This document shows, one piece after another, positions 6,954-38,723 of a stretch of DNA of 64,000 nt (positions are counted from its first letter, which is position 1; each line of letters starts with the position of its first letter). The notes beneath the pieces are model-generated. The model was not told the origin of the DNA, did no database searches, and saw nothing but the letters and a program-made list of their open reading frames with translations. The stretch lies in NCBI GenBank assembly GCA_023015825.1, contig JALKAW010000002.1:248001-312000 (forward strand), given 5' to 3'. The position numbers and the translations under genes were made by a program. The DNA comes from Flavobacteriaceae bacterium S0862 (GTDB lineage Bacteria; Bacteroidota; Bacteroidia; Flavobacteriales; Flavobacteriaceae).

Positions 6954-8009
6954 ATGTCACAATTCTATAAACTTACTATAAAAGAAATTCAAAAGGAAAC
7001 GGACAATGCTGTTACCATAAATTTTGAGGTTCCTAATAACTTAAAAGACACTTTTTCCTTTAAAGCAGGGCAATATATCACTTTAAAAACAATATTGAAT
7101 GGCAATGAGGTTAGGCGTGATTATTCTTTGTGTGTATCTCCAAAAAGCAACGAATTAAGAGTTGCGGTAAAAGAGGTAGACAACGGAACTTTCTCAGTTT
7201 ATGCCAATAATCAGTTAAAAGTTGGTGACTCGTTAGAAGTAGCACCACCTAAAGGTCGTTTTGTGTTTGAGCCTAATGACAAAAAAACCAAAAACATAGC
7301 TCTTTTTGCAGCAGGAAGTGGTATTACACCAGTATTAAGCATTATAAAATGTGCTTTGGAAGAAGAAGTACATAGTAAAGTTATTTTAGTTTATGGCAAC
7401 AAAAAAACCAAAGACACCATGTTTTTGAATGAATTGCTAGAGCTTCATCATCAATACAAAGATCGTTTTTCTATTCAGTTTGTATTTAGTCGAGCTGATG
7501 AAGACAATGCAATTTTTGGGCGTATAGAAAAAAGTACGGTCAACTATATCATGAAAAACAAACATAAACATGTTGAGGTTGATGCTTTTTATTTATGTGG
7601 TCCAGAAGGCATGATTCACACTGTAAAAGATGTGCTTACTGAGCATAATATAAACGATGATGTTATTCATTATGAATTGTTTAAAGCCGCCAAGGCAAGT
7701 AATGATGACATCAAAACTCTTTCTGAAGGTAACACACATATTACAGTAATTGTTGATGATGAAGAAACCGAATTCGAAATGTCTCAAAAAAGAAATATTT
7801 TAGAGTCTGCACTAGATGAGGATTTAGATGTGCCGTATTCTTGCCAAGGAGGTATTTGTAGTAGTTGCATTGCGCGAATTAAAGAAGGTGAAGCAACGAT
7901 GCGACAAAACAATATTTTAACTGACAGCGAACTTGCCGAAGGGCTCATTTTAACATGTCAAGCACACCCTACTACAAATAAAATTGTTGTAGATTATGAT
8001 GATGTATAG
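6954..8009 (+). CDS. Ferredoxin--NADP(H) oxidoreductase, PaaE-like (FAD plus 2Fe-2S)
   Basis: 351 residues from the ATG at 6954. The order is an FAD-binding barrel with RRDYSLC near residue 56, an NAD(P)-binding domain starting near AAGSGITPVLS (about 117), and a C-terminal plant-type ferredoxin with cysteines 297, 302, 305 and 335 (CxxxxCxxC...C). This passes electrons from NAD(P)H through FAD to a 2Fe-2S centre and on to an oxygenase. PaaE of phenylacetyl-CoA epoxidase is the nearest named family, but no paaABCD genes are in the window, so the partner is unknown. The AlkB-like hydroxylase at 58917 is one possible acceptor, which is speculation. Confidence 0.88.
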   Translation: MSQFYKLTIKEIQKETDNAVTINFEVPNNLKDTFSFKAGQYITLKTILNGNEVRRDYSLCVSPKSNELRVAVKEVDNGTFSVYANNQLKVGDSLEVAPPKGRFVFEPNDKKTKNIALFAAGSGITPVLSIIKCALEEEVHSKVILVYGNKKTKDTMFLNELLELHHQYKDRFSIQFVFSRADEDNAIFGRIEKSTVNYIMKNKHKHVEVDAFYLCGPEGMIHTVKDVLTEHNINDDVIHYELFKAAKASNDDIKTLSEGNTHITVIVDDEETEFEMSQKRNILESALDEDLDVPYSCQGGICSSCIARIKEGEATMRQNNILTDSELAEGLILTCQAHPTTNKIVVDYDDV

Positions 8010-8207
8010 GTCCTAAAATTTGTGAATACAATGTTATTCATCTGATTTATTTATTGTTTAATCTTTGAAATATGCGTTTCATCGAATTGAATACATGTTT
8101 TCCTACACAAAATTTTTATGTGTTTTAAAATCGAATACATTAGTAGTAGATTTAAACGTTAATCTTTTTTTAGGGTTATCTATGTCTATTTATAACGTTA
8201 AATCTAG

Positions 8208-8231
8208 CCTCACTTTATGTGAGGTTTTTTT
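8208..8231 (+). terminator. Intrinsic terminator
   Basis: CCTCAC, a 5-nt loop and GTGAGG followed by seven T. The T-run is on the plus strand only, so it ends plus-strand transcripts, roughly 200 nt after the PaaE-like gene. The hairpin straddles the stop codon of the convergent GT9 gene. Confidence 0.85.
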
Positions 8232-9249
8232 GTAGAATTATATTTGCTTTTAAAATGACTTGTTGAGGTGTTATTGAGTTAATAGCCTCATGGTATCCCT
8301 CCGGAAATTTGTTGCCATAAATTGAAGTAGGTATTAAAGGAAATTGTTCTCTATCTGCTATCAAAGCATTTTCAGGGTTTTGGTTAAAAGGGTAAAAGCC
8401 TGCATAAGGATGCGTGACTCCCCAGAGCGTAATTACCTCAATACCCAACATTGCTGCTATGTGTGCATTTCCAGAATCCATTGATATCATGAGATCAAGA
8501 TTGGAAATAATATCCAATTCTTCATCTAATGTGAGTTTACCAGCAAGATTAATGGTGTTGGTTTGTGATGTTGCTATGTTGTCCAACATTTTAATTTCGT
8601 TTTGCCCACCTCCAAAAAGCAAAATGGTATTTGATTGGCTAAGTGTTTTTATAACTTCTTGCATTTGCCCTAACGAATAGGCTTTACTTTTAAACGCTGC
8701 AAAAGGCGCAATACCAATCAAAGGTTTATTTTTACCTTCAATAATATTTTCAAGCTTTTTACTTAAAGTTACTTTGTTTGGAAATACGGGAGAGCTTAAG
8801 TCTAAATCATATCCAAGAGCAGAAAAAACATCAGCATAACGTTGATGTGTTGTTTTAAGTTGCTTAAAAAACTTGCCTGAGGTTAGTGCTTTTTTTTCGG
8901 CTCTTCCTTTGTCGATTTGGATGCGCTTTTTATTAATTAGAAAAAGTTTAAGCACATTACTTCTAAGCACATTGTGTAAATCTGCAATAGCATCAAACTC
9001 AAGTTTTTTAAGTTCTTTAGATAGTTTATAGAGTCCTAAAACACCTTTATGCTTTCCTTTTACATCTGCTGCATGTACAGACACATTTTCCAAATCTCTA
9101 AAAAAAGGAGTGAAAAATTCTCTAGTTAAAACCGTGAGTTTAACTTGTGGATATTGCTTAGTAAATTGTCGTAATATGGGAGCAGTCATAGCGACATCTC
9201 CCATTGCGGATAAGCGAATAACCAAAATGTGTTTAGGTAAATTACTCAT
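8215..9249 (-). CDS. Glycosyltransferase family 9 (heptosyltransferase-like)
   Basis: 344 residues. The N-terminus HILVIRLSAMGDVAMTAPIL is the GT9 signature, and the C-terminal half has MISMDSGNAHIAAMLGI and TLWGVTHPYAGFYP, the usual nucleotide-sugar binding region. GT9 enzymes such as WaaC/WaaF add heptose to the lipopolysaccharide inner core at the cytoplasmic face of the inner membrane. The DUF4254 gene 41 bp upstream is a frequent neighbour of this family. Two short inverted repeats (9245-9267 and 9271-9299) surround the start and may affect translation. The exact sugar is not determined. Confidence 0.88.
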   Translation of the reverse strand: MSNLPKHILVIRLSAMGDVAMTAPILRQFTKQYPQVKLTVLTREFFTPFFRDLENVSVHAADVKGKHKGVLGLYKLSKELKKLEFDAIADLHNVLRSNVLKLFLINKKRIQIDKGRAEKKALTSGKFFKQLKTTHQRYADVFSALGYDLDLSSPVFPNKVTLSKKLENIIEGKNKPLIGIAPFAAFKSKAYSLGQMQEVIKTLSQSNTILLFGGGQNEIKMLDNIATSQTNTINLAGKLTLDEELDIISNLDLMISMDSGNAHIAAMLGIEVITLWGVTHPYAGFYPFNQNPENALIADREQFPLIPTSIYGNKFPEGYHEAINSITPQQVILKANIILQKNLT

Positions 9250-9290
9250 TCAAAATTATATAATGAGTCTCAGAAATATTATAAAAACTA

Positions 9291-9899
9291 CTATTTCTGT
9301 GCTCTTAAAACTGGGTTAAGCTCATCATCATTATACATTTTCATTTGCTTATATACCTTCATGTATTTATCGCCATTAGAAATATCTTCAAGCAAATCGT
9401 CAATAGCAGTTGATAAATCCACTCGCTGTTCTAACAATACATTTAACTTCTTTTGACAAGCGTCTTTGTGATGTTGCGATGCATCATCTCTAACTGTTTC
9501 TAAATGCATATGATAAATTTTTAGTGCCAAAATTGACAATCTATCTATTGCCCAAGCAGGACTTTCAGAATTTATCTTAGCATTAGACTTAACAACAACA
9601 TCTTTATATTTATCTAGAAAATAGCTGTCAATATACTCAACAGTGTCTGTTCTATCTTGGTTAGATGCATCAATCTTTCGCTTTAATTTTAAAGCAGCAA
9701 CTGGCTCGATGTTTGGGTCTCTAATAATATCTTCGTAAGCCCATTGAACAGTGTCAATCCAAGATTTTCTATATAATAAATGAGCAATTAAATCGTCATT
9801 TTTATCATACTTATTCGTAAATGGCTGGTCAACAGTATTTAATACTTTGTAGGTTTTAATAACCTCTTGGAAAATGGTATTTGCCTTATCTGAAAACAT
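9291..9899 (-). CDS. DUF4254 domain protein
   Basis: 202 residues, almost entirely helical, with conserved-looking stretches DLIAHLLYRKSWIDTVQWAYEDIIRDP and RIDRLS-like SPAWAIDRLSILALKIYHM. No signal peptide or membrane segment, so cytoplasmic. It matches DUF4254, a family of unknown function repeatedly found beside GT9 glycosyltransferases in Bacteroidetes. A link to lipopolysaccharide core synthesis is inferred from that linkage. Own promoter elements lie just upstream. Confidence 0.8.
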   Translation of the reverse strand: MFSDKANTIFQEVIKTYKVLNTVDQPFTNKYDKNDDLIAHLLYRKSWIDTVQWAYEDIIRDPNIEPVAALKLKRKIDASNQDRTDTVEYIDSYFLDKYKDVVVKSNAKINSESPAWAIDRLSILALKIYHMHLETVRDDASQHHKDACQKKLNVLLEQRVDLSTAIDDLLEDISNGDKYMKVYKQMKMYNDDELNPVLRAQK

Positions 9900-9919
9900 A
9901 TCTTTGTGCTTATAAAATG

Positions 9920-9952
9920 CAAATATACTCCTATTTAATTAACTTTACTCAA
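9920..9952 (-). promoter_or_regulatory. Predicted promoter of the DUF4254 gene
   Basis: On the minus strand TATATTTG (9927-9920) matches TAnnTTTG, with a TTG at 9952-9950, spacer 22 nt. It lies in the 68-bp divergent gap shared with upp. Confidence 0.45.
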
Positions 9953-9967
9953 CCTTAATTACGTAAA

Positions 9968-10624
9968 ATGCACATTCATAATCTTTCAAACACCGACTCC
10001 ATTTTAAACAACTTTATATTCGAAATAAGAGATGTTTCTATTCAAAATGATAGAATGCGCTTTAGACGAAATATTGAACGTATTGGTGAGATATTGAGCT
10101 ATGAGATGAGTAAAATACTAAACTATCATACAATTAATGCCGAAACACCTTTGGGCAACACAAGTGTAAATGTGCCAAAAAAAGATGTTGTAATCTGTTC
10201 AATTTTAAGAGCTGGTTTACCGCTTCATAATGGTGTATTGAATTATTTTGACAAAGCAGAAAATGCTTTTATTTCAGCTTACAGGCATCATTTAAACAAT
10301 ACCGATTTTGAGATTGTTGTAGAATATATTGCAAGTCCAAACTTGGAAAACAAAACGCTTCTTTTAGTTGACCCTATGTTGGCTACAGGAAAATCTTTAG
10401 CTTTAACTTATGAGGCCTTAAAATCTCATGGAATGCCAAAGCAGGTACATATTTTAAGTGTTATTGGTGCCGAAACTGGTGTTGATTATGTGAAAGACAA
10501 ATTCCCAGAAAATACTCATTTATGGATTGCTACTATTGATAAAACACTGAACGATAAAGGTTATATAGTTCCTGGTCTGGGTGATGCTGGAGATTTAGCC
10601 TTTGGCGATAAATTAAGAGGCTAA
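9968..10624 (+). CDS. upp: Uracil phosphoribosyltransferase
   Basis: 218 residues, close to the usual length. The PRPP-binding loop is LLLVDPMLATGKSLA (about 137-151), with ICSILRAGLPLHNG upstream and the C-terminal GYIVPGLGDAGDLAFG that closes the uracil site. It converts uracil and PRPP to UMP in pyrimidine salvage. The last 12 bp overlap the end of the convergent DUF6427 gene, so no room exists for a separate terminator. Confidence 0.96.
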   Translation: MHIHNLSNTDSILNNFIFEIRDVSIQNDRMRFRRNIERIGEILSYEMSKILNYHTINAETPLGNTSVNVPKKDVVICSILRAGLPLHNGVLNYFDKAENAFISAYRHHLNNTDFEIVVEYIASPNLENKTLLLVDPMLATGKSLALTYEALKSHGMPKQVHILSVIGAETGVDYVKDKFPENTHLWIATIDKTLNDKGYIVPGLGDAGDLAFGDKLRG

Positions 10625-24686: not shown

Positions 24687-25907
24687 TTAACTTGTTGCAA
24701 ATTTACTTTTTTTGCTCAAATCTATATATATATATGCTAAGGATAAATAAAAAATATAATTTGCCAAGGGTCTTACGGTAATCCCGTTACTAATAAAGCT
24801 CGAGAACAAACTTGCAAATAATAAGGATAGGAATATAATGTTATTGCGTTTAGAAAGTTTAATTAATTGATAGTAAACTATTATAAACCAAAATAAATAA
24901 AGAGCTCCGTTTTCAACTAAAAAAGTAATTACATCACTATGGGCTCCTTTCTTTTCCCACCACCAAATATCCGTCTTTATTAAGTCCGAGCCTGCTCCCT
25001 GTCCAAAGACCCAATCTAAAAACGAAAAATTGCTTAATTGTGTTATTTTATCCCCATACATATCTGTTCTTCCTGAGGAAATTTCGGTAAAATCAACTTC
25101 TGAGTTGATTAAAAAGAATAAAAAGATAAATAACGGCAAAAAAATCAGAACCTTAACAAATAAAATTTTAAAAATATTTGACACTAAAAACAGCATTGTA
25201 ATTATGAATATTAAATACATAATTACAGCTGTTCTTATGTTATAGCCTAAATACAAAAACAAAAATGTTAGAACCAAAAATATAATTAAATTCAGCTTGT
25301 TTCCTTTTCTATAGATTATATAGGCAAGCCCCATAAAAGCACTCACCAAAAGATAACTCTGCGTATGTATGCTATCAAAATATATTGGTAAATAGTTCTG
25401 GAGTCTATTAATACTTGGATTAAAAAATACTAGCCCAATAAAGGTTAAAAAAACACACAAAAACACCGTATTAAGTAAAATCTTTTTTAAAGTTTTTTTT
25501 GTTTTATTATGATAAATAACTAAAGCACAAAAAAAGTAAATTGGTGTGAATATTTTTAACGAAAACCTAAGGGAATCTATGGTGGCAACTTCGTTTTTTA
25601 GGCTTGTAATAATGTTTAAAACAAACATTATTATTGAAATAAATATTAAGCCTTTTGATGCCTTAAAATGTTTTGAATACCTCAATACGAACCCCAACAA
25701 AAAAGGAAATAAAACGTATTCTATTTTGCTCGAAAAATCTGCAGGAAGTGATAAAAAATTAAATACTTCTTCGTTAGATTTTAAATCTCTCTGAAAATAA
25801 TGAACTCTTACAGCAAGATACGAGAACAACAGTTTTATCCAAATTAATAGAATAATTGTTCCAAAAAAAATGTTGAAAACACTAACCTTTAGTGAAAGTT
25901 TCATCAT
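24687..25907 (-). CDS. Polytopic membrane protein, O-antigen polymerase (Wzy)-like
   Basis: 406 residues with about 11 hydrophobic helices and a large loop between about residues 270 and 310 containing SGRTDMYGDKITQL and VFGQGAGSDLIKTD. The SGR(T)D..(G) pattern followed by GxGxG is common in Wzy/WaaL-type proteins. It would polymerise or ligate undecaprenyl-linked glycan at the periplasmic face. It overlaps the LamG lipoprotein gene by 4 bp. One of three such proteins in this locus. Confidence 0.72.
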   Translation of the reverse strand: MMKLSLKVSVFNIFFGTIILLIWIKLLFSYLAVRVHYFQRDLKSNEEVFNFLSLPADFSSKIEYVLFPFLLGFVLRYSKHFKASKGLIFISIIMFVLNIITSLKNEVATIDSLRFSLKIFTPIYFFCALVIYHNKTKKTLKKILLNTVFLCVFLTFIGLVFFNPSINRLQNYLPIYFDSIHTQSYLLVSAFMGLAYIIYRKGNKLNLIIFLVLTFLFLYLGYNIRTAVIMYLIFIITMLFLVSNIFKILFVKVLIFLPLFIFLFFLINSEVDFTEISSGRTDMYGDKITQLSNFSFLDWVFGQGAGSDLIKTDIWWWEKKGAHSDVITFLVENGALYLFWFIIVYYQLIKLSKRNNIIFLSLLFASLFSSFISNGITVRPLANYIFYLSLAYIYIDLSKKSKFATS

Positions 25908-26680
25908 TTGCTAGCCCCTATATAAGGTTGGTCATTATAAACTTGAACTATTTCTTTTTCTGTTAATGCAGTACTAAATATTTTTAAACTATGTAAAGAT
26001 CCATTCAAAAGAGTGGTATAGCCTTCACCTTGTGGCAATCCACCTAGGATCACTTTCTCAAACATTTTAGAGTGGGGTGAAATATCACTAAATGAGGCAT
26101 ACAACTCTGAATTAACAAAAATTTCAATTGAGTTTCCCGAAAAATTAAGAGACACAAAAAAGACTTCATTTGGTGGTAGTTGATAAGAGTCATAATAAGC
26201 TTTAGACTCCCCTAAATCTTTATCATATTTTTCAGCCCAAAGTTTTTGATTTCCATAAACTCCTGTAATTCTTTTCCCAGCAAAATAAACAAAGAGAGGG
26301 ATATCCCTTGTTGGTGAAGAATATTTATCTGTAAATGAAATAAATGTTTGTGGTTTTGTGCCATCGTCTGTCTTAGAATTAAAAGAAAAACTAAGGTTAA
26401 ACTCTTTACTCAAATCAAGATCAATTAGAGGTAACTTAATATACGAGGGATTATTAACTGACCCCGAAAATAACGCTCCTTCGTTTGAGAATTGTATGTT
26501 TTTATATTCTGCCCCTTCAATGTCTTGCTTCATTAAAGTACTTTCGAAAACCAAAAGATCATTAATATCTCTTTCCTTTTCTTCTTGAGAAACTTCGATT
26601 TGTTCAGTATCCTGCTTTTTTTCTTCTTTACAAGAAACAAAAACTACTAATAAAACTAAAAGTGATATTATTTTCTTCAT
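25904..26680 (-). CDS. LamG-like (concanavalin A fold) lipoprotein
   Basis: 258 residues. The signal peptide ends with FVSC, acylated cysteine at residue 17, followed by KEEKKQD, which matches the Bacteroidetes lipoprotein surface-export pattern (lysine followed by acidic residues). The rest is a jelly-roll of the LamG/pentraxin type, with SLNFSGNSIEIFVNSELYAS and the terminal LHSLKIFSTALTEKEIVQVYN. Such domains bind glycans or act as lectin-like adhesins. It is encoded between two polymerase-like genes and overlaps one, so a role in handling the polysaccharide at the cell surface is plausible but not shown. Confidence 0.78.
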   Translation of the reverse strand: MKKIISLLVLLVVFVSCKEEKKQDTEQIEVSQEEKERDINDLLVFESTLMKQDIEGAEYKNIQFSNEGALFSGSVNNPSYIKLPLIDLDLSKEFNLSFSFNSKTDDGTKPQTFISFTDKYSSPTRDIPLFVYFAGKRITGVYGNQKLWAEKYDKDLGESKAYYDSYQLPPNEVFFVSLNFSGNSIEIFVNSELYASFSDISPHSKMFEKVILGGLPQGEGYTTLLNGSLHSLKIFSTALTEKEIVQVYNDQPYIGASK

Positions 26681-26691
26681 GGTTTTTCTAA

Positions 26692-27846
26692 TTAAGTATT
26701 CGTATAAATTTCGTTTAATATAACGGTAAAAATAGCCAAAGTGATATATATAACCGAAGGATAATATAAAAAATTACCTCTTAAAACAATAGATGTTCCT
26801 ATTACCAAAAACAAAACAATCGCTAGTTTGCTATTTATCTTAGGAAAATTATGTCTTATTAAGAGTATATATACAATCGTCCCTATTAGACCAAAGCTTA
26901 AAAAAAGATCTATAAATGCCATTTCTGGAAGCCTCTCAATAAGAGAAGCCCCACCAAATAAATAATTCAAAACACCATAATGTTCTTTAATATTGGCTAA
27001 GGCTTTATTAAAGTGGACATCTCTATACGAAAAGAATGCAGATAACATACCATCTTTTGTTAACACATTATTTAAAGTTGTGTTTAATGTTAGATATAAC
27101 TTGAATCCATAAATGCTAAGTGTTGATATAATAAAGATATACAACACATAAAACAAATTTTTGCCAACTAGCTTCTGTTTAGATACAATAAAGCGACCTA
27201 ATACTATGGTGCTTGTTATTACAATAAATGCTATAAGGGTTTTGCTACCTACAAAAAGTGAAGAAAGCACTATAATAGATAATAATATGTAGGTTAAATA
27301 GTTTTTACGTCTATACAGCAAGTAATAGATTAAAGAAAGCATATAGAAATAAGAAGCCGTAGAGGTACTCTTAAAAATACCGTTGTAGCCAAATCTATCA
27401 CCGTAATAGGTCTCAAATACATGGATATTAAAAAAGAACCCCAGTAAAATAAAAACAAAATTGAGTAAAACTAAACCTAATATTATTTTTTTAAGGTAAA
27501 TCGTCTGTAGTCGTTCATATTCTTTAAAAAAGAAAAGCATTGCTATAACCCCAAAAGCGTATTTTGAAAAATGATATATGTTGTGATTAACCATACTATT
27601 ATCTTGGCTTAAAAGACTTATCACACAAGACACAAACAGCAACCCGAGAAACATATAACTCTTCTTGTCAGTTTGTTTAGAAAGAGCTATGAATGTCGCT
27701 AAAAACGCACCTATAAATACCTTAATAAGTGTCAATTTTATAACTTCTGAATTATTGTAAAAGATGTATTTGTAATAAAAATCTGTGATAATAATGATTA
27801 CAAAGAACAATGCTGCTAATTTCGATATTAACTTCTCGTTTATCAT
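26692..27846 (-). CDS. Polytopic membrane protein, Wzy-like
   Basis: 384 residues with about 11 hydrophobic helices and a periplasmic loop near residues 255-300 containing FFSYRDVHFNKALANIKEHYG and LFGGASLIERLPEMAFID. Loop with YR(D)xHFxxA and FGxG-like turn is of the O-antigen ligase/polymerase type. No named family could be assigned with certainty. It overlaps the flippase gene by 4 bp. Very AT-rich, like its neighbours. Confidence 0.65.
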   Translation of the reverse strand: MINEKLISKLAALFFVIIIITDFYYKYIFYNNSEVIKLTLIKVFIGAFLATFIALSKQTDKKSYMFLGLLFVSCVISLLSQDNSMVNHNIYHFSKYAFGVIAMLFFFKEYERLQTIYLKKIILGLVLLNFVFILLGFFFNIHVFETYYGDRFGYNGIFKSTSTASYFYMLSLIYYLLYRRKNYLTYILLSIIVLSSLFVGSKTLIAFIVITSTIVLGRFIVSKQKLVGKNLFYVLYIFIISTLSIYGFKLYLTLNTTLNNVLTKDGMLSAFFSYRDVHFNKALANIKEHYGVLNYLFGGASLIERLPEMAFIDLFLSFGLIGTIVYILLIRHNFPKINSKLAIVLFLVIGTSIVLRGNFLYYPSVIYITLAIFTVILNEIYTNT

Positions 27847-29024
27847 ACAGCACTGTATTTAGAAAAATATCGTAAGATAAAGTACCTAAATGTTAAGGTT
27901 ATAAAACTTGCTATAGCAATACCCGTAACATTCAAGTAAATAAACAATACATAACTTAAAACTACATTTAACATAAGCATCATTAAATTTATCTTTAAGT
28001 TTAGTTTGAACTCTTTTTTAATTAAAAGAAGGGTTCCGTGTAATACTGATTGTGTTTGGAAAAATTTTGCAGCTAAAATAACCAAGAATATATAAATGGT
28101 CTCATTAAAACTCATGTAGAACGTGTTTATTAGAAATAAATATCCCAGTAAGATAATTACTGAAAATATTGAAATAAATCGCAATATCTTAACCGCTTTA
28201 GGTTTCGCGTTTTTTAGAGTTTTTATTTCTTCAATATCAACTTGTACCATTGTAAATGGCACTAAAATGAGCATATTGGCAATATTTAAAGCAAAGCTGT
28301 AATCGGCAATGTCTGTATTAGGTGTTTTAGAAATTAGTTTCAATATCATGATGTCTGTATATAAGAACATAATATTTGCAAAATTACTAACCACCAAGGT
28401 CAGTGAGCTTAACAATAGCTTTTTAAATAATCCAAAATATCTTTTTAAAAAGACAAGTTTTATATGATATTTTTTAAAAAGCCCTGTTAAAAAAACGATC
28501 CCTAAGCCAATTAAATAATAATTAACTGTAACAAAAGCCTTTTCTGGTTCTGGGTGTAATAACAACAATAAGAATACTCCTGTATAAAACAGAAAAGACG
28601 TAGCCGATTTATAAATTGATGCCTTATTGCTTCCTAACTGAGTGATAAAGAATACAGGCATAACACCATTATTAAAAAAAATGGCGTGAAATAAAATTGG
28701 TATTATTAAAAACTGGTAATTTAAAGCCCATAAAATAGGAGATACAATTACTGCTAAAAAAGCAATAAATAAAATCGCTAGTACATTTAAATAAACTTTG
28801 CTATCCCTGCTTTTTGTGTATGTTAATAATAAACTCGGTAAACCAAAAGCTAAAGCTACAGCTAATAATTCAATAAGCTTTTTATAAAACTCTAGTTGCC
28901 CATAATCTTCCTTGGTTAAAAACAAAGCTGCGTAAAACAACACGAAATATTCTAACCCTCTACTTATAACAATTGAGAGTGCGTAGAAAAAATACTTTTT
29001 ATAGTTTTTAACTTTTTTTAGCAC
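27843..29024 (-). CDS. Polysaccharide flippase, Wzx/MATE-like
   Basis: 393 residues, GTG start. About 12 hydrophobic helices, with the N-terminus YALSIVISRGLEYFVLFYAALFLTKEDYG (first part: an amphipathic start, then LTKEDYGQLEFYK) typical of the polysaccharide-biosynthesis/RfbX superfamily. It would flip undecaprenyl-diphosphate-linked repeat units from the cytoplasmic to the periplasmic leaflet. It is between two Wzy-like genes, as expected for a Wzx/Wzy pathway. Confidence 0.78.
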   Translation of the reverse strand: MLKKVKNYKKYFFYALSIVISRGLEYFVLFYAALFLTKEDYGQLEFYKKLIELLAVALAFGLPSLLLTYTKSRDSKVYLNVLAILFIAFLAVIVSPILWALNYQFLIIPILFHAIFFNNGVMPVFFITQLGSNKASIYKSATSFLFYTGVFLLLLLHPEPEKAFVTVNYYLIGLGIVFLTGLFKKYHIKLVFLKRYFGLFKKLLLSSLTLVVSNFANIMFLYTDIMILKLISKTPNTDIADYSFALNIANMLILVPFTMVQVDIEEIKTLKNAKPKAVKILRFISIFSVIILLGYLFLINTFYMSFNETIYIFLVILAAKFFQTQSVLHGTLLLIKKEFKLNLKINLMMLMLNVVLSYVLFIYLNVTGIAIASFITLTFRYFILRYFSKYSAV

Positions 29025-29031
29025 TTTGTTT

Positions 29032-30261
29032 TTATGGTTTAGTTTCGCTTTGCATTATATGAAAACTCAATATTAATGCAATAATTAAGGCTGAATACAC
29101 AACCCCTTGTGATCTCTCAAAAATCGACTCAGTTAAACACGCAAAAAATAGGCCTATTGTAACAAATATGTAAAATCCATTTCTTGTTTTAACACATACA
29201 TAGAATAAATATGTAAAAAATAGAACATAGGCCACTCCGCCAATAATGCCAAAGGTGCTTAAATATTCGAAAAACTGATTATGGGCATTAAAGTTTCTTT
29301 CGTAACCTATAGTATCCTTGTTTTTCTTAAAAACTTCTCTTCTGTGCTTACTTTCAGCAGCAGTTCCATAACCTATTATAGGTTTTTGCATGAATACCTC
29401 ATATGATGCTGCTAATCTGTCAAAACGATCATCTTTTTTACTAAACTGGGTTTCCTTTTCAAAAAAATTGAGGTTATTAAAAATACGATCTCTTAAATAA
29501 TTGTGCTTAACATTATAAGCTAGGGTACCTAGAATAATCACTGTTATAAATGCTAGGGTTAAAATTTTCCATTTTCTATAATAAGCTAAAAACACAGTAG
29601 ACGCCAACAGATAATAAATAATCGCATTTCTAGAAAGCAAGTGAAACATAAACAGTGATAATATTGTTATTGTAATAATAGCGATGATTTGTTGGGTCCT
29701 TTTTAGGTTTTTATAAACTAATATTATAAAACCTATTGCTGTGTAAATACAAATGGATAGATACGCCGCATGTAAATCCAAAGCTTTTATTAAGTTATGA
29801 TGCGAATAGAGTGGTCCAAATAATTCTTTAAGTGGTTTATTTTGACTTTGAATGTCCAAAATAGAAAATGACCAACTGTAAAGCATCACAAAGAGGCAAC
29901 CTAATGTAAGTGCATATCCAAACTTTTTATAGTTTTTGTTAAAAATATTTGGTGAGAGAATTGCGATTAACGGTAAAAATAAAAATGGAATTGCTCTAAT
30001 GGTGAAATCAAGTCCTTTTTCAAATTCATCTGTATAAATAAGACCTAAGGCATTCAATAAAAATGGAATGGCAGCGATTACCAAAACCCATTTATTCTTT
30101 TTTAGGCGCTTAAGGATACTTTCTTCGTGTTCTAGAAAAAGGCTAAGCATACTTAAGCCTATAAAGCAAACTATTAAAATGTTGTTTAAATTAAGATGTA
30201 TAGGCAAGAAAAAAACAGCTAAGATTAGGCAATAAATTTTTAACTGATTGATGATTTTCAT
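29032..30261 (-). CDS. O-antigen ligase/polymerase family membrane protein (WaaL-like)
   Basis: 409 residues with about 11 hydrophobic helices. The large periplasmic loop (about 260-325) includes KKDDRFDRLAASYEVFMQKPIIGYGTA and NAHNQFFEYLSTFGIIGG, the pattern (R..W/Y...P..G.G... H(N)..) of the Wzy_C/WaaL domain. It is the clearest ligase/polymerase of the three in this locus, so it may be the true O-antigen ligase or the polymerase. It lies 7 bp from the flippase gene. Confidence 0.85.
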   Translation of the reverse strand: MKIINQLKIYCLILAVFFLPIHLNLNNILIVCFIGLSMLSLFLEHEESILKRLKKNKWVLVIAAIPFLLNALGLIYTDEFEKGLDFTIRAIPFLFLPLIAILSPNIFNKNYKKFGYALTLGCLFVMLYSWSFSILDIQSQNKPLKELFGPLYSHHNLIKALDLHAAYLSICIYTAIGFIILVYKNLKRTQQIIAIITITILSLFMFHLLSRNAIIYYLLASTVFLAYYRKWKILTLAFITVIILGTLAYNVKHNYLRDRIFNNLNFFEKETQFSKKDDRFDRLAASYEVFMQKPIIGYGTAAESKHRREVFKKNKDTIGYERNFNAHNQFFEYLSTFGIIGGVAYVLFFTYLFYVCVKTRNGFYIFVTIGLFFACLTESIFERSQGVVYSALIIALILSFHIMQSETKP

Positions 30262-30323: not shown

Positions 30324-32234
30324 CTATTTAAATGAAATGTTGTTTATGTTTAACGCTTCGCCTATTGTCCCTTTATAGACCTCTTTATCCATAAGAAAAA
30401 CTCTAATTTGTTTCCATTCGTCTATATCACAATGCTTTTTAAGTGTTAAAATAAGATAGTTTTTGTCATCGATTTTAATTCTCAAAGGTGTGCTTCCCCA
30501 TGAAAGTTTATTATCTTGTTTTTCTTTAACCCAATCTGGAAGATTATTCAGGTCCCTTTTGTGGGCTAATCCATGAATCCCAAAAATTTTATCTTTCATG
30601 AAATCAACGGGGTATGGTTCCTGATATTCTAATGCAATAAATTTAGACACTTTATTTGAATAAAAAATTATGTTTGATACTTTTAACTCCTCCGAAAAAT
30701 TATGATCTATTTTTGTTTTTGGGGCACTAATAAAAATTTTCGTTAATTCATCTTCCTCTTCATTATTATTATTTTTTTCATAAGAATTTAGCCCATTTAC
30801 CTTCAAAAATAATGGAGCTTCTTTTTCAAATGCGTTTCCAATTGTACCTTGGTATTTCTCTTTGTTCATTAGAAATATGCGGATTTGTTTGAAATTGTTT
30901 ATTTCACTAATTTTTTGAAAATTCAAAATAATATAATTTCTATTGTTATTGCTAATAATATCCATTTCTGCATTCCAAGTAATTCGATTTTCGCTTCTAT
31001 TTCTAATCCAACTAGGAAGTTTGTTTTTGTCATTAGAATAGGCATAAGCATGTATGCCAAAGGTTTTGTCTTTTAAGAAATCATGTATATGATCCCCATT
31101 ATATTCAATTAAAAAATATCTTTTCTTATCATCGGTGTAGAAAAACATTTGTTCAGCTCTTAATTCAGTCGAAAAATTATGTTTAGTATTCAACGAGTAG
31201 CCTTTCTCAATTATATGATTAAATAATTCAAGTTTATTTTCTTTGGTTTTTTTATCAAATAATTTACTTAATTCATCTCTATTTTTCTTGTCAAAATTTA
31301 AAATTTTTTCATTTATTATTTGATTCTTGTTTCTGTTGTTTAAAATTCCTTCTTTAATAATAGAATCAAACCACAGAGAAAAAACTTTCGCCCCTTTATG
31401 ATTAATATGACCAAAATCCCTGTATTCAATTGAACTTAATGGAAAGTTATTAAAATCTAAGAAGTCAACATCTTTAAATCTATTTAGTATTATTTCTTTA
31501 AAGAAATCTTCATTATTTAATTCTGGACTTAAACTGTGCTGAGGGCTTCTAATAAGATAAACCTTCTTGTTGTTTTCTTTGCATAAAGAAATTATTTTCT
31601 CCAAATATTCAATGTTTACATTCGAAATTTTATGATTTTCTAATTTCTTTATTGGATTATTCTGATTGGCTTTTATTAAAGAATCTAGCTTACTTTCTTT
31701 TAAAGAATTGTATCCTCCAAATTTTTCAAATCTAGAAAACACATAATCTTTTTCGACTACTCGATTAAAGTTTGTTTTTAATGAAGATGTAAAATATTCC
31801 AAATATGTTTTTGGGTTTTTTCGTAATAAAATTAACTGATCTCCAACGCTAATGAAAGGGGAGTAGGTCAAATATCTCGACGTAATATATTCGTCTCCCC
31901 AAATCCAATTATTCATTGATTCATCAACTAAATTATTGGTGAATTCAATAAACACATTTTTAACATTTTTATTCTGCTTTATTATTCTAAGAACTTTAGG
32001 ATACATATAGTAATATGATTCCCCGGATTTAGCAAAATTCTCTGTTTTTGAAATTAAAGAATCATTAAATGCAGTTTCCGGATGTGAGTGGCCAAAAATC
32101 ACATTTACAGTTTCTTGGTTAATTTTGAAATTTACATTATTAGATATATTATTATTAACAGAATAAAATAATACAATAATTGATATCAGAAATAATACGC
32201 AAAAGGCTATGAACTTAAATATTAATTTTTTCAT
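30324..32234 (-). CDS. SGNH-like O-acylation partner with duplicated C-terminal domain
   Basis: 636 residues. A membrane anchor (about 5-26) is followed by an SGNH/AlgJ-like domain with a candidate nucleophile Ser50 in VIFGHSHPETAFND and D273/H276 in RDFGHINHKGAKVF. Residues 352-469 and 511-628 are two copies of an unrecognised 118-residue domain, aligning without gaps at about 49 identical positions by eye (conserved KDK, FGIH, LPxW, KQIRxFLM, YxGTIGxA). An acidic/asparagine-rich linker (about 487-497) joins them. It is 2 bp from the MBOAT gene, the standard pairing for periplasmic polysaccharide O-acetylation (AlgI/AlgJ, PatA/PatB). The repeats may bind the glycan. Confidence 0.7.
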   Translation of the reverse strand: MKKLIFKFIAFCVLFLISIIVLFYSVNNNISNNVNFKINQETVNVIFGHSHPETAFNDSLISKTENFAKSGESYYYMYPKVLRIIKQNKNVKNVFIEFTNNLVDESMNNWIWGDEYITSRYLTYSPFISVGDQLILLRKNPKTYLEYFTSSLKTNFNRVVEKDYVFSRFEKFGGYNSLKESKLDSLIKANQNNPIKKLENHKISNVNIEYLEKIISLCKENNKKVYLIRSPQHSLSPELNNEDFFKEIILNRFKDVDFLDFNNFPLSSIEYRDFGHINHKGAKVFSLWFDSIIKEGILNNRNKNQIINEKILNFDKKNRDELSKLFDKKTKENKLELFNHIIEKGYSLNTKHNFSTELRAEQMFFYTDDKKRYFLIEYNGDHIHDFLKDKTFGIHAYAYSNDKNKLPSWIRNRSENRITWNAEMDIISNNNRNYIILNFQKISEINNFKQIRIFLMNKEKYQGTIGNAFEKEAPLFLKVNGLNSYEKNNNNEEEDELTKIFISAPKTKIDHNFSEELKVSNIIFYSNKVSKFIALEYQEPYPVDFMKDKIFGIHGLAHKRDLNNLPDWVKEKQDNKLSWGSTPLRIKIDDKNYLILTLKKHCDIDEWKQIRVFLMDKEVYKGTIGEALNINNISFK

Positions 32235-32236
32235 TT

Positions 32237-33706
32237 TTAAAATTGAAAATAAATGAATTCTGATGCTTCTCCAGGGCCATATATGCCAAATAAAAATATA
32301 ACCATGCTAATGCCTAAGTACGCCCCCCATCTAAGCGATATTGGTTTTTGATTTAATATTTCTTCAACATTATTTCTTTTGTGATACCACTCAAAAGCAA
32401 CTAATAAGCCTATTGCAATCAATGAAATTATAAATTCATATTTAACTAAGCCTAGTTCATATATATAGCCATTATTTAAATTCTCAATATTATTAACTCC
32501 TATATTACGAATTAGTACTATGGCATCATTAAAACTATTAGCTCTAAAAAATATCCATGCAAAACACACAATGGTAAATATCATTGGAATGAAAATCATC
32601 TTATGTGCTAAGTGTCCTTGATTTATTTTTAATTTGTTATACAGTGATTTTCTTTGCTTAGCAAACGCTTTTTCGATAACTATTATAAAACCATGTATGG
32701 CTCCCCAAATTATAAACGTCATGGCCGCTCCATGCCATAAACCACTTACTAAGAATACAGCAAATAAATTGAAGTACATTTTATATTTTCCATTTCTACT
32801 TCCCCCTAGTGGAATATATACATAATCTCTAAACCAAGTTGACAATGAAATATGCCATCGTCTCCAAAACTCTGTGATGGATTTTGATAAATATGGGCTG
32901 TCAAAATTTTTCATTAAATCAAACCCCATTGTTCGCGCTAATCCTATAGCAATATCAGAATAACCTGAAAAGTCACAATAAATTTGAAAGGCAAAAAATA
33001 TTGTTGCTATTATAATCTCAACACCAAAATAATCTGTAGGGTTATTATAAACTTGGTTCACAAGAATTGCTAAACGATCTGCAATGACCATCTTTTTAAA
33101 CAAACCAAAAGCCATTAACAATAGCCCTGATTTTACCTGATCATAATTAAATTTATAGGTTTTATAAAACTGTGGTAATAAATGCGAGGCTCTTTCAATT
33201 GGACCTGCAACTAACTGAGGGAAAAAAGCAACAAAAGCGAAAAACGACAACATATCTTTTGTTGGCTCCAGTTGCTTTCTATAAATATCAATGGTATAAC
33301 TTAACGTTTGAAAGGTATAGAAACTTATACCTACAGGTAATATAATATTCAATGTTGAAATCTCTAAATCTTTTCCAAATAACTTAAAGGAATCAACAAA
33401 AGTTTCAATAAAAAAATTGGTGTATTTAAAATATATTAAAAAACCAAGGTTCACTAAAAGACTTAAAGACAAAAATCGTTTTCTTTTCTTCTTATTTTCT
33501 TCTTTAAAAAGTTTTTTTCCTACATAAAAGTCGATAAAAGAACTTATGATAATTAGAAACAAAAATCGCCAATCCCACCATCCATAAAACAAATAACTTG
33601 ATGCTAATATCAAGATATTTCTATATGTTAGATTTTTTGCAAGAATCCAATATAAAACAAATACAATTGGAAAAAATATCGCAAAGTCAATTGAGTTAAA
33701 TAACAT
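32237..33706 (-). CDS. MBOAT family O-acyltransferase (AlgI/PatA-like)
   Basis: 489 residues, about 11 membrane helices. The MBOAT signature is visible: ISFYTFQTLSYTIDIYR, the region GYSDIAIGLARTMGFDL, SITEFWRRWHISLSTWFRDYVYIPLGGSR (WRRWHISLS core) and the active histidine in LVSGLWHGAAMTFIIWG. It moves an acyl group, usually acetyl, across the inner membrane for O-acylation of an exported polysaccharide. The downstream SGNH-like protein is the expected periplasmic partner. Confidence 0.93.
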   Translation of the reverse strand: MLFNSIDFAIFFPIVFVLYWILAKNLTYRNILILASSYLFYGWWDWRFLFLIIISSFIDFYVGKKLFKEENKKKRKRFLSLSLLVNLGFLIYFKYTNFFIETFVDSFKLFGKDLEISTLNIILPVGISFYTFQTLSYTIDIYRKQLEPTKDMLSFFAFVAFFPQLVAGPIERASHLLPQFYKTYKFNYDQVKSGLLLMAFGLFKKMVIADRLAILVNQVYNNPTDYFGVEIIIATIFFAFQIYCDFSGYSDIAIGLARTMGFDLMKNFDSPYLSKSITEFWRRWHISLSTWFRDYVYIPLGGSRNGKYKMYFNLFAVFLVSGLWHGAAMTFIIWGAIHGFIIVIEKAFAKQRKSLYNKLKINQGHLAHKMIFIPMIFTIVCFAWIFFRANSFNDAIVLIRNIGVNNIENLNNGYIYELGLVKYEFIISLIAIGLLVAFEWYHKRNNVEEILNQKPISLRWGAYLGISMVIFLFGIYGPGEASEFIYFQF

Positions 33707-33719
33707 TCACTTTTCTTGT

Positions 33720-34931
33720 TTATTTAATTACGCCACAAAAATCCAGTACCTCTTTATTATCACCAATATTTAAACCTTTAAACTCATCGTGCGCTACTAA
33801 AAAAGCAATAATATCGGCTTTCTCAGCAGCTGTTTTATAATCTGTTAGTTTAAAGACTTTATGTGAGTTTATATTTGGTTCAACAATATAGTATTCTTCG
33901 TTATTGGCGTTTTGCAATACTTTTTGAGCAATGTATTTGGCAGGTGATTCTCTTAAATCGTCAATATTTGGTTTAAACGCTAAGCCCATTAAGGCAATAC
34001 TCGGTTTGCGTCCATGCTTCAGCTCAAATTGTAATTTAGCTGTTTGTACTTTTTCGGCACACCAAAACGATTTATAATTATTAATTTCTCTAGCTTTCCC
34101 AATAATTTGTGACTCCATTGGATAGTCAGACACTATAAAATAAGGATCCACCGCTATACAATGACCTCCTACACCACAACCTGGTTGTAAAATATTGACT
34201 CTTGGATGCTTGTTTGCTAGCTCGATAAGTTCCCATACATTGATATCGGCTTTATCACATATTAAAGACAATTCATTGGCAAACGCAATTTGTACATCTC
34301 TAGAGGAATTTTCTACGAGTTTACACATTTCGGCTGTACGCGCATTGGTTTTGTGTAAATCTCCTTTTATAAATTGACAATAAAAGGTTATCGCTTTTTG
34401 TGTAGATTTTTCATCAACGCCTCCAATCACGCGATCATTATGAACTAGTTCATACATGACATTTCCAGGGAGTACTCTTTCTGGGCAATAGGCTATATGT
34501 AATTTTCCTTTTAATTCTGGCCTTTCAGAAAAAATCAACTCCATCATTTTTTCTGTGGTTCCTATAGGGGACGTTGATTCTATAATGTACAAATCGTTTT
34601 CTTTTAAAAGTGGTATAATAGCTTTTGTTGCCGATTCTACAAAAGAAATGTCAGGTTCGTTTTTGGCTTTAAATGGCGTTGGTACTACAATTAAATACGT
34701 GTTTGCTTGAACTGGACTAATTGATGTTTTTAAGTATCCTTTTTTAACAGCATTAGCCACAGCAATATCTAAATCTGGTTCTACAATATGTATTTCGCCC
34801 TTATTTATGGTTTCTACCACTTTAGGATTAATATCTACACCATGTACAAAGATCTCGTTTTGAGCAATTAAAGCAGCCGTAGGTAATCCTATGTAGCCTA
34901 AGCCTATCATTACAACTTCTGGGTTATTCAT
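33720..34931 (-). CDS. wecC: UDP-N-acetyl-D-mannosamine dehydrogenase
   Basis: 403 residues. N-terminal VVMIGLGYIGLPTAALIA, the catalytic cysteine in NILQPGCGVGGHCIAVDPYF (first part about 242-253) and the C-terminal domain with ALMGLAFKPNIDDLRESPA define the UDP-glucose/GDP-mannose dehydrogenase family, WecC branch. It oxidises UDP-ManNAc to UDP-ManNAcA using NAD. The substrate comes from WecB, encoded 35 bp upstream. Confidence 0.93.
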   Translation of the reverse strand: MNNPEVVMIGLGYIGLPTAALIAQNEIFVHGVDINPKVVETINKGEIHIVEPDLDIAVANAVKKGYLKTSISPVQANTYLIVVPTPFKAKNEPDISFVESATKAIIPLLKENDLYIIESTSPIGTTEKMMELIFSERPELKGKLHIAYCPERVLPGNVMYELVHNDRVIGGVDEKSTQKAITFYCQFIKGDLHKTNARTAEMCKLVENSSRDVQIAFANELSLICDKADINVWELIELANKHPRVNILQPGCGVGGHCIAVDPYFIVSDYPMESQIIGKAREINNYKSFWCAEKVQTAKLQFELKHGRKPSIALMGLAFKPNIDDLRESPAKYIAQKVLQNANNEEYYIVEPNINSHKVFKLTDYKTAAEKADIIAFLVAHDEFKGLNIGDNKEVLDFCGVIK

Positions 34932-34956
34932 ATCTAAGAAATTATTCTTTGTTAAG

Positions 34957-34980
34957 TTAAGAATTATTAAAGATTCTTAA
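34957..34980. repeat. Inverted repeat at the wecB-wecC junction
   Basis: TTAAGAAT and ATTCTTAA, 8-bp arms with an 8-nt loop, spanning the wecB stop codon. No T-run follows on the minus strand, so it is not a typical terminator. It may stabilise or partially attenuate the transcript between the two genes. Confidence 0.4.
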
Positions 34981-36097
34981 TAAAATTTACGATGCGCTCA
35001 CATGCTTTTCCATCACCATATGGATTGTGTAATTGGCTCATTTCTAAATATGCTTTCTCATTATTTAAAAGCCTATTTGCCTCGTCAACAATTTTTTGTT
35101 TATCTGTCCCAACTAGACGAACTGTTCCAACATCTACCGCTTCAGGCCTTTCAGTAGTGTCTCTCATCACTAACACTGGCTTTCCTAAGCTAGGTGCTTC
35201 TTCTTGTACGCCTCCGCTATCGGTAATAATAATATGTGATTTTTCCATTAACCATACAAATGATGGATAAGATAAAGGTGATATTAACTTGATGTTTGTG
35301 ATATCGCTTAACAATTCATATACTGGTTTTTGAACGTTAGGATTTAAATGAACCGGATATACAATTTGGCATTCTGGGTGTTGCAATGCAATTTCTTTAA
35401 GTGCCTCGCAAATGTTTATAAATCCCTGTCCATGATTTTCCCTTCGATGTCCTGTTACTAATATTAGTTTTTTAGAATCATCTATTAAAGATAATAGACC
35501 ATCTATTTCACTGTCTTTATAACCATTTTCACTAACTTTATTTACACTAAAAAACAAAGCGTCAATAACCGTATTACCAGTTACAAGGATGTTCTGTTGA
35601 GATTTATTTTCAGTAATTAAATTTTCTTTTGAAGTGACCGTTGGAGCAAAATGTAAATTAGTAACTACACCTGTTACAGACCTGTTCATTTCCTCAGGAA
35701 ATGGCGATTGCATATTAAATGTGCGCAAACCCGCCTCAACATGGCAAATTTTAGCTCCTGCATAAAAGGCTGCGATGCTTGTTGCCATGGTCGTTGTAGT
35801 GTCTCCGTGTACAAAAACAAAGTCCGGATTAAAATTTTCTAAAACTGGCTTAAGGTTAGTAATAATATCTGCTGTTAATCCATATAAGTTTTGATTAGGC
35901 TTCATTAAGTCTAAATCAAAATCCGGGGCAATCTCAAAAAAGGCTAAAACTTGATCTAACATCTCCCTATGTTGAGCAGTAATGCAAACCTTGGTTTCGA
36001 ACTCCTCCTTATGTTTTTGAAATTCTTTAACCAAAGGCGCCATCTTTATGGCTTCTGGTCTTGTTCCAAATACAATGAGCACTCTCTTTTTTGACAT
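34967..36097 (-). CDS. wecB: UDP-N-acetylglucosamine 2-epimerase (non-hydrolysing)
   Basis: 376 residues. N-terminal VLIVFGTRPEAIKMAPLV, VHGDTTTTMATSIAAFY, HVEAGLRT, the catalytic-site VTGHRREN and IITDSGGVQEEAPSLGKPVL are all present. It interconverts UDP-GlcNAc and UDP-ManNAc, the precursor for WecC. Position 30 bp after rfbD puts the ManNAcA genes within the rhamnose operon. Confidence 0.95.
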   Translation of the reverse strand: MSKKRVLIVFGTRPEAIKMAPLVKEFQKHKEEFETKVCITAQHREMLDQVLAFFEIAPDFDLDLMKPNQNLYGLTADIITNLKPVLENFNPDFVFVHGDTTTTMATSIAAFYAGAKICHVEAGLRTFNMQSPFPEEMNRSVTGVVTNLHFAPTVTSKENLITENKSQQNILVTGNTVIDALFFSVNKVSENGYKDSEIDGLLSLIDDSKKLILVTGHRRENHGQGFINICEALKEIALQHPECQIVYPVHLNPNVQKPVYELLSDITNIKLISPLSYPSFVWLMEKSHIIITDSGGVQEEAPSLGKPVLVMRDTTERPEAVDVGTVRLVGTDKQKIVDEANRLLNNEKAYLEMSQLHNPYGDGKACERIVNFIKNL

Positions 36098-38369: not shown

Positions 38370-38723
38370 TCAATTTAAACTTTTTATTAAACTCGACAAC
38401 ATTTTTCTAATGAAATAGATACGTTTATTTATTATTTCTAATTCATTCAAATATTTTAACCTATATGCTATTTCTAATTGTGTTTCAACTTCAGACAAAG
38501 AACCCAAGGCTATATATAAAAATCTTATGAATTCTTTGTTGCCTCTACGACCAGCACCTTCGGCTATATTTGAAGGTATTGAAACACAAGCTCTTTGCAA
38601 TTGGGATGTAAGACCATACGTTTCCTGAGAAGGAAAACTTTCAGAAACCTTATAAATCACAATGACCAAATCCATAGCTTCTTGCCATACTTTCAAATCT
38701 TTATGTGATGTTATTTGATTCAT
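38370..38723 (-). CDS. Four-helix-bundle protein (S23/Avd-like)
   Basis: 117 residues, the family's usual size. It starts DLKVWQEAMDLVIVIYKVSESFP and contains the hallmark QLQRACVSIPSNIAEGAGR, then FIRFLYIALGSLSEVETQLEIA. The fold is that of 23S rRNA intervening-sequence proteins and of the Avd accessory protein of diversity-generating retroelements; no reverse transcriptase or rRNA gene is nearby. It is inserted between rfbA and rfbB and bracketed by inverted 8-bp repeat arrays, which suggests a mobile or recently acquired unit. Molecular function is unknown. Avd-type pentamers bind nucleic acid. Confidence 0.9.
   Translation of the reverse strand: MNQITSHKDLKVWQEAMDLVIVIYKVSESFPSQETYGLTSQLQRACVSIPSNIAEGAGRRGNKEFIRFLYIALGSLSEVETQLEIAYRLKYLNELEIINKRIYFIRKMLSSLIKSLN

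Follow-up and report, generated by a model that had tools for sequence, protein, structure and literature searches.

A doubled, predicted beta-sandwich module on a putative EPS O-acyltransferase belongs to a family that may bind polymers in flavobacterial EPS loci

A 64,000-nucleotide stretch of the Flavobacteriaceae bacterium S0862 genome (contig JALKAW010000002.1, positions 248,001 to 312,000; hereafter the window) encodes a 636-aa partner of an MBOAT O-acyltransferase (30324..32234, minus strand), in which an SGNH-like domain is followed by two copies of a module that we term M. We consider it fairly probable that M is an accessory, non-catalytic beta-sandwich that binds the EPS of its own locus, and that its doubling on this SGNH acyltransferase serves to grip the acceptor chain or set it in place. 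The layout of the protein was established from its open reading frame and translation and from an alignment with nine homologues, and comprises an N-terminal hydrophobic segment read from the sequence (residues 4-26; 32157..32225, minus strand), which is a putative membrane anchor or signal anchor, the SGNH-like domain and the two M modules.

Copy 1 (residues 352-469; 30828..31181, minus strand) and copy 2 (residues 511-628; 30351..30704, minus strand) are recovered by the family profile with E-values of 1.2e-31 and 2e-30, respectively. They align end to end without a gap, with 49 of 118 residues identical and an ungapped BLOSUM62 score of 287, in exact agreement with the count given in a preliminary description of this DNA. 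Shuffling of one copy (10,000 shuffles) produced at most 20 identities and not a single score above 0, and a BLASTP comparison of residues 1-490 with residues 491-636 returned 115 bits (E 2e-35, relative to that small search). The motifs FGIH, LPxW, KQIRxFLM and GTIGxA occupy equivalent positions in both copies, as had been described. The term gapless tandem, also used in that description, applies to the alignment but not to the spacing, since an Asn/Glu-rich linker of 41 residues (residues 470-510; 30705..30827, minus strand) separates the copies. At the DNA level the copies are identical at 206 of 354 positions (58%), indicating that the duplication in the window is old.

The SGNH-like domain covers about residues 40-295 (31350..32117, minus strand). 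Its label rests on motifs and alignment, because the window domain has no Pfam match and its homologue in L041 has a weak one (Lipase_GDSL_2, E 0.0033, below cut-off); the profile of the SGNH alignment (A4) likewise gave no significant PDB match and nothing above cut-off in Pfam or NCBIfam. Ser50 lies within a GHSH motif and Asp273 and His276 within DFGHIN, with G48, S50, H276 and N278 invariant among nine aligned SGNH sequences, and the protein thus has the Ser and Asp-x-x-His of the SGNH member of an MBOAT-SGNH pair. The gene for its partner (32237..33706, minus strand; Pfam MBOAT, E 2.5e-30) comes first and is separated from it by 2 bases. This MBOAT ends in FIYFQF, a C-terminus identical in all eight MBOATs compared and fitting the FXYXXF acyl-tyrosine motif of MBOATs encoded beside an SGNH gene. 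In PatA, the tyrosine of this motif is auto-acetylated and hands the acyl group over to the SGNH protein (PMC12148441). Since Ser50, Asp273 and His276 are retained and the MBOAT keeps its FIYFQF end, the pair is most likely an EPS O-acyltransferase, and the proposed attachment of the repeat to an O-acylation partner finds support in both proteins.

This pair is flanked on one side by genes for a nucleotide-sugar dehydrogenase (wecC-like) and a UDP-GlcNAc 2-epimerase (wecB-like), both assigned with Pfam (33720..36097, minus strand), and downstream by genes for a Wzx-like flippase and a Wzy_C-family polymerase or ligase (27843..30261, minus strand; Pfam Polysacc_synt E 1e-10 and Wzy_C E 3.1e-19). 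Together with rml genes, identified by sequence, these assignments define the window locus as a Wzx/Wzy-type EPS locus. In the sister genome G003 the wecB- and wecC-like genes, which form a conserved edge of the locus, are 89% and 92% identical, respectively, and five genes on the far side are 79-91% identical. Between these conserved flanks the MBOAT, SGNH-M and neighbouring genes have been replaced, and neither an MBOAT, an SGNH-M protein nor M was detected in the replaced stretch. The exchange of this cassette therefore places M in the variable, polymer-specific part of the locus, which argues for polymer binding. The same EPS locus encodes a 258-aa lipoprotein-like protein (25904-26680, minus strand) with a LamG/ConA-like domain (Laminin_G_3, E 9.7e-9), possibly another glycan-binding candidate, and a similar gene is present in L049. 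A 117-aa open reading frame between rmlA and rmlB (38373-38723, minus strand) resembles, by eye, a four-helix-bundle protein of the 23S rRNA intervening-sequence type.

Neither the whole protein nor its single M copies gave a match above cut-off in Pfam or NCBIfam, or a significant sequence match in the PDB. The first relative identified was a Leptobacterium flavescens protein with two M copies behind a heparinase II/III domain. A profile built from these two copies and the two of the window was searched in 397 Flavobacteriaceae genomes and matched 25 of them, of which 18, including that of the window, were accepted after reading of the host proteins; the other seven (L021 and L026-L031) were discarded as due to chance, their hits falling within or next to an unrelated gene. 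Draws from the phylum and class added two further genomes, one of them outside the family, with an SGNH-M protein in G1006, and no M relatives were found in plasmids or IMG/VR. The prevalence of M is hence low, at about 5% of family genomes (18/397), a figure that misses diverged copies. The window copies and 23 further members all remained below the curated cut-offs of Pfam and NCBIfam (best E 0.016 and 0.0027, each from one member), and the profile of the family alignment (A2) had no significant match to any PDB chain. The domain, which the preliminary description had called unrecognised, accordingly matched no known domain of Pfam, NCBIfam or the PDB, also in the profile search with one repeat that it had proposed. 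Two lipoproteins with F-[FL]-x-HAYP-like motifs (L048, 11579-12073; L050, 12141-12608), from loci that also encode SGNH-M proteins, are possibly candidates for diverged M domains.

To place the module in context, we read 18 relative loci of 16-18 kb which, with the window, make 19, and all 19 are EPS loci. The 26 M copies reside in eight SGNH proteins including that of the window (seven of the eight with one M), 11 small proteins that begin with a lipobox-like sequence (two M in the one from L046), three polytopic membrane proteins, each about 680 aa long and with a C-terminal M, and one heparinase-like protein with two M, whose heparinase II/III domains have Pfam E-values of 1.8e-18 and 5.5e-18. 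Polysaccharide work is what these hosts have in common, and this, with the uniform nature of the loci, points to polymer binding. The link to O-acylation drawn earlier holds for the window pair and its partner motifs but not for the family, in which M is more often a stand-alone lipoprotein and also occurs on heparinase-like and polytopic membrane proteins. Several M lipoproteins are encoded directly after wecC, a place held by the MBOAT and SGNH-M genes in the window, L049, L053 and L055. In L042 (6792-8361) and L047 (3721-5745), genes for M lipoproteins are flanked by cysC and cysD, with cysN and a gene judged cysQ-like by eye close by. The presence of these cys genes and of sulfotransferase-like genes in both loci (all labelled by motif only) suggests sulfated polymers, and the M lipoproteins of L042 and L047 are probably linked to polysaccharide sulfation.

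The same contexts bear on the main and serious rival, which we regard as rather unlikely: that M is a protein-protein docking domain joining EPS enzymes and lipoproteins to one another or to the export machinery, with the glycan untouched. Two M-bearing proteins are encoded in each of L042, L047, L049 and L055, as docking would favour, whereas a single one was found in L043, L044, L045 and L051 within the 16-18 kb read. Docking is also at odds with the wide differences among M hosts and with the strong divergence of the module, window copy 1 being 12-27% identical to the M copies of other genomes, although a docking partner could co-vary.

The distribution of M among SGNH proteins is likewise more consistent with polymer binding. 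The SGNH profile has matches in 118 of the 397 family genomes. Among the loci inspected, its weaker relatives are mostly tail-less, with open reading frames of about 290-350 aa, and the closer ones have 140-200 additional C-terminal residues, which form an M module in some cases and do not resemble one in others. For the tails of L062 and L065-L071 no link to M was found by hhalign (probability of 2.2% or less), and those of L072 and of the second L047 SGNH protein gave borderline probabilities of 12% and 16%, respectively. The tail slot would therefore hold either different modules or tails that have diverged past recognition, two cases that profile comparison cannot fully separate, and the coming and going, on often tail-less proteins, of M-type tails and of tails with no detectable relation to M argues for polymer binding. 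By eye, the C-terminal tails of L068, L071, L077, L078 and L082 are alike and make up a second tail type, in which a GW motif is accompanied in most cases by an SGF motif; the two tested had no Pfam match above cut-off. The tails of L069 and L070 are similar to each other and resemble the ILEI/FAM3 domain (L069 versus ILEI, E 0.0026, below cut-off).

In a maximum-likelihood tree of the 26 M copies, tandem twins pair with one another in the window protein (support 98/94), the L046 lipoprotein (96/93) and the heparinase-like protein (93/78), with deep branches of this short domain lacking support. Because each tandem copy groups with its own twin in three different hosts, the three duplications are independent, and repeated doubling of this kind again speaks for polymer binding. 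The M lipoprotein of L055 pairs with its SGNH neighbour (93/90), in a join flagged for long branches, suggesting spread of M within one locus. At the level of genes, L049 mirrors the domain doubling seen in the window, with two consecutive SGNH-M genes behind one MBOAT gene (7608-10477).

AlphaFold2 models of both copies, each built on four sequences (window and L006), are beta sandwiches with the same order of strands and short helices from the second strand on. The model of copy 2 reached a pLDDT of 88.5 and a pTM of 0.83, and that of copy 1 a pLDDT of 76.9 and a pTM of 0.73, with an N-terminal stretch of low confidence. The predicted fold of M is thus an all-beta, Ig-like sandwich. Its structural neighbours are Ig- and FnIII-like sandwiches of many functions, with best Z values of 7.3 and 7.0 (below 8), and the best Foldseek match was a chain of plant isoamylase (9xvv, E 1.6e-3), with a porphyran-binding CBM (8wae) at E 0.078. 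These proteins share the overall beta-sandwich arrangement with the M models but none stands out, and their aligned sequence identity is at chance level; a viral-structure search with M returned generic Ig-like folds and nothing else. The matches are therefore too weak and non-specific for a family to be assigned from structure, and the comparison with carbohydrate-binding folds proposed in the preliminary description yielded an all-beta model with a CBM among its matches but no specific carbohydrate-binding fold. As is the case for CBMs, M is, according to these models, a beta-sandwich accessory domain on carbohydrate-active proteins, namely the SGNH partner and heparinase II/III.

Protein contacts are a frequent role of Ig-like sandwiches, and cytokine-receptor FnIII domains are among the folds closest to the M models, both of which are points in favour of docking. 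NEAT haem-binding domains (Z 7.0 over 100 residues, 3.3 A) and the copper proteins FetP/P19 and CrdA are also found among these non-specific neighbours, as would suit a module that binds a metal ion, haem or other small ligand instead of the polymer. We deem this reading very improbable, since unrelated Ig-like domains reach equal Z values, the M family has no invariant set of His, Cys, Met or Tyr ligands and every locus read is an EPS locus. Hydrophobic residues and glycine predominate in the most conserved M columns. None of the polar residues is invariant, and catalysis by M was discounted on that account. This pattern, in all-beta sandwich models, is in line with polymer binding, yet such mainly core-forming conservation suits a scaffold equally well and, like the non-specific fold matches of the models, counts against polymer binding. 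A passive spacer or stability domain, keeping the protein folded or setting its distance from the membrane, would fit these columns, the length added by two copies and a 41-residue linker, and the absence of the tail from many related SGNH proteins. It appears improbable nonetheless, for M also forms stand-alone lipoproteins with little else attached and, being C-terminal and distal to the N-terminal anchor, would not lift the SGNH domain.

Polymer binding also has a precedent in layout. AlgX, of the alginate O-acetyltransferase of Pseudomonas, has an SGNH domain (42-347) followed by a CBM (348-463) (PMC9734138), and therefore shares with the window protein an SGNH-like domain and a C-terminal accessory module, of roughly 116 residues in AlgX, within an MBOAT system (with AlgI) acting on an exported polysaccharide. 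AlgX is, however, an analogue only. Its catalytic residues are Asp174, His176 and Ser269 (PMC4148444), with the Asp-x-His of AlgX/AlgJ ahead of the catalytic Ser, whereas in the window protein Ser50 precedes Asp273 and His276. No relationship between the modules was detected: no PDB chain matched M significantly in sequence, and AlgX is absent among the structural matches listed. M also differs in being doubled in the window and in occurring without an SGNH domain. That AlgX associates with AlgK in a complex (PMC9734138) lends docking some support. The peptidoglycan O-acetyltransferase PatA/PatB resembles the window pair in setting an MBOAT with a C-terminal FXYXXF beside an SGNH protein, but PatB has no canonical carbohydrate-binding domain (PMC12148441), and the window pair differs in its setting, an EPS locus in which it has wecC-like genes on one side and wzy/wzx-like genes on the other. 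The heparinase II/III-like protein of Leptobacterium flavescens (L036, 6481-9204; Hepar_II_III_N/C) carries a tandem M pair at its C-terminus, like that of the window, on an unrelated catalytic domain, presumably a lyase, which indicates that M is portable.

Taken together, context, portability, fold class, repeated duplication and the analogy with AlgX lead us to infer that M binds polymer. The glycan-binding or acceptor-positioning role suggested earlier thus remains the function that best fits the context, fold class and repeated duplication. In the window protein, by homology to PatA/PatB and from the retained residues, the MBOAT would transfer an acyl group from acyl-CoA onto the tyrosine of its own FIYFQF C-terminus, and Ser50 of the SGNH domain would accept it and, in the periplasm, hand it on to a hydroxyl group on a sugar of the growing polymer. 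Both M domains may grip the chain, with a presumed benefit in avidity and processivity.

The combination of an SGNH domain with an accessory beta module is a layout known already. In the libraries and papers searched, the M family appears to be undescribed, as do the doubling of M and its occurrence in EPS loci as a stand-alone lipoprotein; the papers cover the literature in part, and no description of M was found in them. More tentatively, M might represent a new polymer-recognition family with which the EPS loci of flavobacteria label their polysaccharide as their own, with acylation, sulfation-associated, cleaving and membrane proteins and surface lipoproteins carrying a module matched to each polymer through divergence and duplication. 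The finding bears on how MBOAT-SGNH acyltransferases choose and hold their acceptor, a task for which a binding module is present in AlgX but absent from PatB. Because SGNH partners that are otherwise alike may have or lack M, and M is also found by itself in lipoproteins, acceptor recognition becomes testable, and M could help to annotate many lipoproteins of flavobacterial EPS loci that are now labelled hypothetical.
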